Source: Isoetes taiwanensis (taxonomy: Eukaryota; Streptophyta; Lycopodiopsida; Isoetales; Isoetaceae). From it: a stretch of DNA of 64,000 nucleotides. Location: NCBI GenBank assembly GCA_021234155.1, contig JAJEKV010000003.1, positions 14,368,386-14,432,385 of the forward strand. Direction: 5' to 3'. Below the pieces are notes generated by a model. That model ran no database searches and was not told the DNA's origin. It saw nothing but the letters and a program-made list of their open reading frames with translations. Below, piece after piece: positions 6,958-8,147 of this stretch. Position 1 is the stretch's first letter. Each line of letters opens with the position of its first letter. The translations under genes were made by a program, and so were the position numbers.

Positions 6958-8147
6958 ATGGCGTGCACAAAACAGACTGCTCGGAAGTATCGACCAGGAG
7001 AAACACCTAGCGCCCAAGACAAGAAGTGCATACAGCAGCTGCTTCGGGAGCAACTTCTCGCAGGAGGAGACCCACCTTCATCAGGCGAGGAGAGCACTTC
7101 AGAGGAGCTGCAAGAGGAGGGATCTGAGACGTATCACTAGACGAGCTGATTGACGGCATCAACCCGCAGGTGGACGGAGAAGCTGACATTGAGTCGGAAG
7201 ATGACGGAATTCAAAGAGTGTTCGACAGAAAAAACAAGAAAGGGCGGAACGGGAGCAGGAGGCCAAGGCACAGAGGAGCAGAGGGAGCCCACTCCTGAGC
7301 CAACCGAAGAAGAACAGCTCGAGGCCTGGATTCAAATGCACGAGGCGAAGGCGCGACGCGGCGAGAAGAAAAAGGCCGAGAAGAAGAGGAAAAGGGAAGA
7401 AAAGGAGGCAAAAGAGGCCAAAGAAAAGAAGAAACTCAAGGGCAAAGACAAGGTGGAGTCCAAAGAGAAAGATGAAGAAGACCCCAAATGTGAAGATTGT
7501 CATCAACGAACGGCCGGCCGACCAGCCCGTATCCTTGGATGACTCAGATGATGAGGATTACAACCCTCATCAAGAAGGAGGGAGCTCCTCCAAACCCACA
7601 GATGAAGGTCGGACGGACATGGATCAACAGGTGCATGTATCCCCGCCCTACCCAACATGGGAGAAGGACAAGGACCCCAAGAAGCCACCCCGACTTGCCC
7701 GAGAATCTTACGTGGTAGACCATCTCAGGGTCTACCAGAAGAAGTTGAAGGCACACCAGGAGTTCATGAAGAAGTGGGAGGCCTATAACTCCTACTACCA
7801 GGCGAACAAGGTCACCTATGTTGAAGGAGGACGGCCAACAAAGAAGCAGACTCTCAAGCCGCCTCCAGAGAAGCCCATTCCCCCGAAGAAGCCAGTAGCA
7901 AGGAAGACCGGATCGAAACTGTTATGAGCACCGTGCACCGTTCGCCATGCTCGCGAAGGAAGTCGTGTAAGAGTTTGATTCCAGCAAGAGAGTAACAGGC
8001 GAGATGCTACTAGCCTTGCAAGAAGTAGCTGAGCAGAAGCTGGTGCAGCATTTTGAAGACTCAACGGCGTGCACTATACACGCCAAGAGGGTCACTCTGA
8101 TGACTAAGGACATGCACTTGGCCAGTTCCATTAAAGGAAAAAGATAA
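6958..8147 (+). pseudogene. Histone H3-like protein with a ~300-residue insertion (retrotransposon-borne, broken)
   Basis: It starts at an ATG in good context (GACATGG). Residues 2-9 read ACTKQTARK, the H3 tail ARTKQTARK with R2 changed to C; the next residue, S10 in H3, is Y. K4 and K9 are kept. The 3' end, 7932-8147, reads as an H3 histone fold: PF then L-KE, ALQE (8013-8024), LV-HFED, a cysteine at the H3 C110 position, IHAKRVT (8076-8096), then MTKD, LA and I-G-R before TAA. Between tail and fold lie acidic patches, a Lys/Glu-rich coiled-coil-like run (about 7340-7480), a DDSDDEDY motif (about 7528-7552) and a Pro/Lys-rich part.

In known nucleosomes H3 dimerises with H4 in the nucleus; an insertion this long is not a normal H3 feature. 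At least four frame changes (near 7138, 7255, 7480, 7926) and a TAA at 7968, where H3 has Gln (CAA), break this copy. The tail favours a canonical H3 ancestor, although VTLM also occurs in CENH3. Confidence 0.88.

Follow-up and report, generated by a model that had tools for sequence, protein, structure and literature searches.

Introduction

Histone H3 packages DNA and is the carrier of marks that plants use for the silencing of retrotransposons. Mobile copies of H3 have been described in Dothideomycete fungi, in which hAT DNA transposons carry a captured H3 gene. Examples are H3L of Pyrenophora, for which ESTs exist (PMC3538342), and the copies in Pseudocercospora and its relatives (PMC6710886). 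According to the relevant parts of both reports, a mobile element has amplified an H3-like gene to many copies, as is the case for the family presented here (family A). However, the fungal elements are DNA transposons with terminal inverted repeats and a transduplicated H3, whereas family A is bounded by LTRs and encodes protease (PR), reverse transcriptase (RT) and integrase (INT). The H3 copies of the Pseudocercospora hAT elements are described as RIP-inactivated (PMC6710886), whereas the fold of family A is under purifying selection. In addition, H3 is here fused to an element-specific part and occupies a fixed slot before gag-pol.

Extra genes are also known from plant Ty3 elements. Ty3/gypsy elements of Phalaenopsis carry an ORF for an AlkB-type m6A RNA demethylase and are thus, like family A, plant Ty3 elements with a fixed host-derived extra ORF that likely acts on host surveillance (PMC9289625, pertinent section). 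The extra protein is, however, an AlkB-type demethylase and not a histone. In the same study 121 angiosperm genomes were screened and 15 extra domains were obtained, with no histone named in the text of that section (PMC9289625). Plant chromoviruses such as the Tcn1/Galadriel-like elements of Selaginella are likewise Ty3 elements with a C-terminal chromodomain and occur in lycophytes. A histone ORF is not mentioned in the corresponding part of their description (PMC3350952), whereas family A is equipped with hairpin modules and two additional ORFs. Viral histones are comparable in that the H3-like histone of a genetic parasite is expected to interact with host histones. They differ in being single H3-like genes of DNA viruses, and the text of the review concerned contains no words starting with 'retro' (PMC9145170). 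CENH3/CENP-A resembles the family A protein in that a long N-terminal part of unrelated sequence precedes a divergent H3 fold, but family A lacks the longer loop 1 and its histone is encoded by a retrotransposon.

The window analysed here is the whole stretch of 64,000 nucleotides of Isoetes taiwanensis DNA. It contains a Ty3 element whose first ORF (ORF1) is, with near certainty, an element-borne H3-type gene. The first-pass annotation knew of no described LTR retrotransposon with a core histone, and none appeared among the titles listed in topical searches of open-access full text. Transposon-borne H3, extra Ty3 ORFs, viral histones and chromodomains of lycophyte Ty3 elements are known; within the scope of these listings, a core histone that an LTR retrotransposon keeps under constraint seems to be new.

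Materials and methods

Searches were run against the assembly from which the window is taken (1.658 Gb, 1110 contigs). A hairpin query (positions 8288-8360) gave 45 matches from the best 40 of 447 candidates. Around these matches 20 loci were taken, better scores first, and a threshold of E 1e-5 was applied to ORF1 matches. For PF00125 against the genome, the best 150 of 8705 candidates were scored. Members of a second set of elements (group B) were examined in full (L036, L037, L038, L039 and L042) or in part (L041). For the analysis of selection, codons of 25 copies (24 loci plus the window) were set on the columns of an ORF1 reference. The main figures are without six copies with jumbled frames (L014, L016, L017, L021, L024 and L030), which leaves 9-17 copies per part. 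The tail peptide of ORF1 is designated ARTKQTARKYRPG.

Results and discussion

Anatomy and state of the window copy

The features of the element are listed in Table 1. The motif TGGTATCAGAGC is a primer binding site (PBS) of the plant initiator-Met tRNA type.

Table 1 Features of the Ty3 element in the window
Feature	Position	Strand	Basis or remark
Left LTR of the Ty3 element, TG...CA	4683..6259	+	88.5% identity along its length to the 5' LTR of L009/L029
PBS TGGTATCAGAGC	6261..6272	+	exact match
Leader hairpin 1	6466..6533	+	repeat family; fold z -4.8; pairing across four copies
Leader hairpin 2	6678..6745	+	repeat family; fold z -7.9; pairing across four copies
TATA-like TATAAATAGACCC, ORF1 module	6849..6861	+	exact; identical 13-mer also precedes ORF2
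ORF1, H3-like gene, broken in the window copy	6958..8147	+	three or more frame changes plus one stop; open in siblings
H3 N-terminal tail MACTKQTARK	6958..6987	+	ATG comparison; MARTKQTARK in siblings
Charged linker of ORF1	6988..7922	+	without Pfam match; faster evolution than fold
H3 histone fold from alpha1 to the C-terminus, with stop codon	7923..8147	+	Pfam, PDB and tblastn matches
AATAAA, possible poly(A) signal right after ORF1	8160..8165	+	seen in sequence; function inferred
Hairpin 3, opens the second module	8291..8358	+	repeat family; fold z -8.3; pairing across four copies
Hairpin 4	8493..8560	+	repeat family; fold z -4.7; pairing across four copies
TATA-like TATAAATAGACCC, ORF2 module	8754..8766	+	same 13-mer as in the ORF1 module
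ORF2 remnant, second extra gene	8874..9640	+	93% identity to L009 ORF2; without Pfam match
Protease	9540..9950	+	PF08284 (RVP_2), 1.8e-4
Reverse transcriptase	10135..10662	+	PF00078 (RVT_1), 4.3e-29
Integrase remnant; element matches stop at 12276	11393..12276	+	sibling integrase pieces as tblastn queries

The window copy is dead. It has one LTR only, its frames are broken, ORF1 contains a stop, gag is lost (a search of the window copy yielded no match) and the element is truncated in the integrase. ORF1 had been described as a single ORF from 6958 to 8147. This does not hold for the window copy, in which reading 6958-8144 through takes at least three frame changes and one in-frame stop, but it does hold for the sibling copy L009, in which 415 aa are open. 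Dinucleotide shuffles of 6958-8144 required 8.2 events on average, and 4 of 500 required as few as observed. Since equally few events suffice in 53 of 838 window stretches of the same length (both strands, many of them coding), the openness of ORF1 alone is modest evidence. The gag-pol stretch of the window copy requires 17 events over 3.4 kb.

Modules 1 and 2 share one design, in which two hairpins about 200 nt apart are followed by TATAAATAGACCC, a short leader and an ATG. This ATG is that of ORF1 (6958) in module 1 and that of ORF2 (8874) in module 2, and both leaders contain GTTTGCTCC and GGCGATT. We infer that the two modules are separate transcription units. For all four hairpins, the native sequence folds better than any of its 200 shuffled versions. 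In the alignment of four related copies, 94.2% of the cells paired and four pairs were changed on both sides; the covariation score was reached by 26 of 500 shuffles, and covariation across these copies is suggestive only. The hairpin pairs preceding the two TATA-like leaders are similarly spaced in both modules and are also present in sibling elements.

ORF2 sits between the H3 gene and gag and has an acidic DSDDEDY-like motif in common with ORF1 (by eye). An assignment of 8874-9287 to gag was dropped: this stretch is ORF2, which has no Pfam match, and the true gag was found further downstream in L022.

Histone H3 signatures in ORF1

Both H3 pieces of ORF1 are in the correct order on the same strand, between the PBS and the pol domains. 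The first-pass annotation of an H3-like gene inside a Ty3 element, on the strand of the PBS and of protease-RT-integrase and between them, is thereby confirmed. Beyond that annotation, the analysis added ORF2, the paired hairpin-TATA modules, the sibling chromodomain and the group B elements with a near-canonical H3. The H3 tail that had been noticed at the ORF start agrees with MARTKQTARK of H3 in 9 of 10 residues including Met. Among the 2837 ATGs of the window (both strands), the one at 6958 is the only ATG with at least 6 of these 10 residues, the next best having 5. The expected number of ATGs followed by at least 8 of 9 H3 residues after Met is 1.1e-6.

A histone fold had likewise been proposed for the ORF end, together with a histone HMM search at 7932-8147. 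PF00125 (Histone) does match the fold, with an E value of 7.1e-12, above the Pfam cut-off. In tblastn with H3, residues 65-135 align at 7932-8144 with 33 of 71 identities (46%, E 2.7e-16), and the closest PDB match of the fold is Histone H3.3 (5e-12). Of the fold positions at which H3, CENP-A and Cse4 agree, the window copy retains 23 of 36, as against 10 of 35 elsewhere (Fisher P 0.003). Single-sequence AlphaFold modelling of the fold gave three helices at low confidence (pLDDT 59.6). Neither the tail piece of 60 residues nor the linker of ORF1 gave a Pfam match.

Three queries against a large protein database gave no match, a result that says little because eukaryotic H3s of comparable length are apparently absent there. 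Neither the fold piece nor the RT piece had relatives in a scan of IMG/VR.

Related copies in the genome

Whether family copies have ORF1 had been named as a point to check. All 20 hairpin-selected loci gave an ORF1 match (just stretches of 23-46 residues in L013, L015 and L028), as did all four further loci (L030-L033). Protease and/or RT matches were found at 15 of the 20 loci, in L015 on the opposite strand.

L009 and its neighbouring stretch L029 form one complete element of approximately 13.0 kb. It has two LTRs of about 1.56 kb (K2P 0.095), a PBS next to the 5' LTR and, by eye from the element edges, TG...CA ends, a 5-bp target site duplication (TSD) AATCT on both sides and a PPT-like GGTGGGGAGAA. 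The Ty3/gypsy features of two LTRs, TSD and PBS are therefore all present in L009/L029, while the window has the left LTR and PBS only. L009 ORF1 begins with MARTKQTARKYRPGETP, its N-terminus reads MARTKQTARK, and its histone domain matches PF00125 with 1.7e-23. L009 ORF2 (L009:3070-4437) is open over 456 aa and gave no match against Pfam. In L029 the integrase features an H2C2 zinc finger (3.9e-17) and a C-terminal chromodomain (PF00385, 2.1e-8; one sibling examined, the window copy ending earlier). A canonical gag (PF03732, 4.7e-16) is located ahead of PR and RT in L022. The order gag-PR-RT-INT is thus assembled from PR and RT in the window, gag in L022 and integrase in L029.

Family A is large and abundant in the Isoetes taiwanensis genome. 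With a 58-aa piece of the fold, the best 150 of 7277 first-look candidates (a number not equal to a copy number) were 76-100% identical, window included. Nearly all of these matches were full length and 5 of 150 had an internal stop, in a sample that is skewed towards intact copies because it consists of the best hits. With the LTR end (5960-6260), the best 40 of 3115 first-look candidates, again not a copy number, were 95-100% identical. Of eight LTR-selected stretches, seven had no PBS at the expected position (solo or 3' LTRs); one of the eight, L049, leaves the family around the ORF1 start and contains no other element gene.

H3 residues 1-10 are at least partly readable in 18 of 25 copies. 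At least 8 of the 10 residues are present in 14 of these 18 and all 10 in 5. From residue 11 onwards, family A ORF1 lacks the H3 tail.

The broken window gene and the distance of about 1 kb between its two H3 pieces could point to chance similarity, or to a separate H3 pseudogene that landed in one element. Chance similarity is rejected by the tail expectation and by the tblastn E value of the fold. A processed pseudogene inserted by chance, which the first-pass annotation had itself raised, is excluded by the ORF1 matches at the sibling loci, by the complete LTR-bounded sibling with its TSD and by the purifying selection described below. The probability left for either is negligible. The H3-type histone of ORF1 is a resident gene of a Ty3 chromovirus family, fused to an element-specific part and placed ahead of ORF2-gag-pol.

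Selection on ORF1

For the fold (residues 347-415) we obtained a pooled pN/pS of 0.116 and a median pairwise dN/dS of 0.069, and for the histone domain with alphaN 0.156 and 0.098. The corresponding values are 0.351 and 0.243 for tail residues 1-17 (17 codons), 0.442 and 0.297 for the linker, 0.443 and 0.372 for ORF2, 0.31 and 0.213 for the gag core and 0.429 and 0.31 for RT; in all of them the pairs are not independent, decay after insertion lifts the ratios and the skipping of frame-shifted stretches lowers them. With all 25 copies, we obtained 0.273 (pooled) and 0.13 (median) for the histone domain, and 0.224 and 0.11 for the fold. Values for the histone domain lay below those for the linker in every one of 200 subsamples. 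The tail (1-17) is not more constrained than gag. L010 and L023 differ from each other at 39 of 58.8 synonymous sites and at 7 of 205.2 nonsynonymous ones. Among the parts of the element that were measured, constraint is strongest on the histone fold, which is subject to purifying selection. The histone part being the best preserved among the measured stretches, the element probably uses the ORF1 histone.

Transposon-borne H3 copies without demonstrated function exist, as stated in the pertinent parts of two reports (PMC6710886, PMC3538342), and a captured H3 fragment might simply be amplified along with the element as passive cargo. However, the median dN/dS of the fold is lower than that of gag core, RT and ORF2, also when all copies are included, and the pairwise data already indicate a dN/dS well below 1. 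Again arguing against cargo, 145 of the 150 best fold matches, the sample skewed to intact copies, are free of internal stops, and the histone has been kept in two groups of elements. Based on the constraint on the fold and the mostly stop-free matches this explanation was rejected; it is very improbable.

At synonymous sites ORF1 is more diverged than pol: among 12 copies, the linker exceeds RT in 31 of 36 pairs and ORF2 in 52 of 53 pairs. For the histone domain of L010, 0.55-0.72 of synonymous sites differ from L009-type copies (among the pairs listed), 0.08 from L020 and 0.40 from L025; for the linkers of L010 and L009-type copies the range is 0.31-0.53. Given that ORF1 is more synonymously diverged than ORF2 and RT, ORF1 segments seem to have been swapped among lineages.

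Residues of the histone domain and proposed function

In 11 family A copies, 47-50 of 88 residues are as in host H3. R83, E94, E97, L100, D106, C110, K115, R116, V117, D123 and I130 are invariant and as in H3 in all 11; the H3 residue is also present at H113 in 10 copies and at L126 in 9. Of these, R83, C110, H113, R116, V117, D123, L126 and I130 presumably make contacts to DNA or between H3 and H3'. R63 is replaced by P and R128 by S in all 11 copies, and R129 is replaced in all 11 as well; we take these three to be DNA- or nucleosome-contacting residues of H3. S10 of the H3 tail is Y. The chromodomain of L029 is without two of the three aromatic cage residues (by eye) and is CHD_II-like according to the definition given in PMC3350952 (relevant part). 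Because of these missing residues it is doubtful that the sibling chromodomain reads an H3K9me tail.

We estimate a probability of about 0.5 that ORF1 is both an element-encoded H3 gene and a tail-replaced variant that enters chromatin. As to how it would act, we tentatively propose, at somewhat less than even odds, an H3 variant that has a replaced tail, pairs with H4 and changes the chromatin of the element or of its targets. An H4-pairing variant is favoured because the contact residues of the fold are kept in the 11 copies; the replacement of R63, R128 and R129 counts against a nucleosomal role. The ORF1 protein would pair with host H4 and enter nucleosomes, either on the element's own DNA or at target sites. 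In family A the H3 tail ends after residue 10 and is followed by a long charged linker, and in group B a part of roughly 300-350 residues takes the place of a free tail. Most of the sites at which silencing marks are set (K27, K36) would be missing from such nucleosomes, and those of family A would present K4/K9 in an altered context, next to Y at position 10. The outcome might be that heterochromatin formation on the element is blunted, or that chromatin is labelled for the element integrase.

If so, an LTR retrotransposon's own H3, constrained beyond its RT, would be a direct weapon or disguise in the silencing conflict. It makes testable whether a parasite rewrites chromatin through a supplied histone rather than an enzyme, and it offers natural H3 tail-replacement variants to chromatin biochemistry.

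The location of ORF1 before gag-pol, behind a TATA-like leader of its own, its charged linker and its constrained fold would also be consistent with packaging. Here the histone, by itself or together with host histones, would condense the element cDNA or act as a tether for the pre-integration complex. The kept H3-H3' contact residues, however, point to the chemistry of the histone octamer and not to a stand-alone DNA binder. Packaging is improbable in comparison with the proposed nucleosomal variant.

A second group of elements

The first 15 of the best 150 PF00125 matches in the genome cover profile positions 2-122 with 164-165 bits, the span and score of ordinary H3, and the one of them that was examined (L040) is an ordinary H3. 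The remaining 135 matches score 145-155 bits, and 36 of them are located in open frames of at least 400 aa. The five group B proteins examined in full are encoded by open frames of 456-485 aa with the H3 domain at or near the C-terminus. They agree with host H3 in 73-78 of 88 residues, and four of them match PF00125 with 2.6e-41 to 3.5e-44. An N-terminal part of approximately 300-350 residues replaces the free tail. Comparison of this part (L036, L038) with family A revealed no similarity (best E 0.88). Values of pN/pS range from 0.07 to 0.17 among the five and against host H3, at a pS of at least 0.75 in 12 of 15 pairs.

Upstream of L036 we found a PBS, and its surroundings contain a weak ORF2 match (E 4e-5). 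Downstream of it are a gag (41%) and an RT that is 81% identical to the RT of the window, a relation checked in this one member (L036/L043). A protease-like frame follows L038 (by eye). For annotation this is a warning, since genomic PF00125 matches include element-type fusions (all five fully examined of the 135).

None of the five group B proteins starts with ARTKQTARK and, therefore, tail mimicry is not common to all elements. This bears on a possible role of ORF1 as a decoy, which would stay outside nucleosomes while its H3 N-terminus and fold occupy methyltransferases, readers, chaperones and free H4, so that silencing is weakened. In family A the free ARTKQTARK N-terminus distant from the fold, the good preservation of the tail in most readable copies and the loss of R63 and R128/R129 with a kept fold core all fit such a role. 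Group B, with an RT 81% identical to that of the window in the one member checked, nevertheless has a near-canonical H3 fold without ARTKQTARK, and a decoy has no obvious need for the H3-H3' contact residues, yet these are kept. We regard the decoy as unlikely and the chromatin-entering variant as the better reading. An extension of the latter, somewhat more speculative still than the mechanism itself, is that a whole lineage of plant chromoviruses makes its own nucleosomes: H3-type histones of at least two groups, with N-terminal parts shaped by the elements, would replace host H3 on element or target chromatin, and host silencing marks would not be written normally. One histone would then come perhaps from H3 and the other perhaps from CENH3, and a retroelement would carry an epigenome.

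Origin of the histones

In a maximum likelihood tree of 88 residues, family A joins the CENH3 of rice and Arabidopsis (UFBoot 95) and group B clusters with H3; the tree has long branches, and its CENH3 side consists of the rice and Arabidopsis sequences, entered by hand. Of three trees compared, the one constrained to family A plus CENH3 was the likeliest with both models used. The AU test gave p values of 0.14 (LG) and 0.31 (Q.plant) for family A with H3 and B, and of 0.07 (LG) and 0.12 (Q.plant) for family A with B alone. Loop 1 of family A is of canonical H3 length, ungapped against H3, and is not the longer loop 1 of CENH3. The LLIPRAPF stretch of family A resembles plant CENH3, with which the LLIP and RVTLM motifs are shared. 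An origin of the family A histone from CENH3 is tentatively favoured, with alternatives left unrejected by the AU tests. One capture with subsequent divergence and two captures are both possible.

Such an origin would suit a function in addressing, with family A ORF1 guiding the element, or the complex of its integrase, towards chromatin of the CENH3 type. The LLIPRAPF resemblance, the grouping with CENH3 and the likelihood of the constrained tree speak for it. Against it stand the AU tests, which reject neither alternative placement, the H3-type length of loop 1, and the long branches and hand-entered references of the tree. Addressing therefore appears rather improbable, slightly less so than packaging, and the H4-pairing variant is preferred.

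Other features of the window

A second, more distant Ty3 fragment is located at 34786-36315, with gag 61% and protease 65% identical to the element lineage; no H3 match was found beside it. The stretches 12294-12598 and 28316-28620 form a repeat with 88% identity, which starts near the end of the element's integrase matches; the copy at 12294-12598 is possibly a later insertion. Frames at 41405-43465 resemble PPR-repeat proteins (by eye), which are typical of land plants. Tandem repeat arrays were observed at 52528-52892 and 48939-49505, the latter of which recurs in inverted orientation at 61710-62310.
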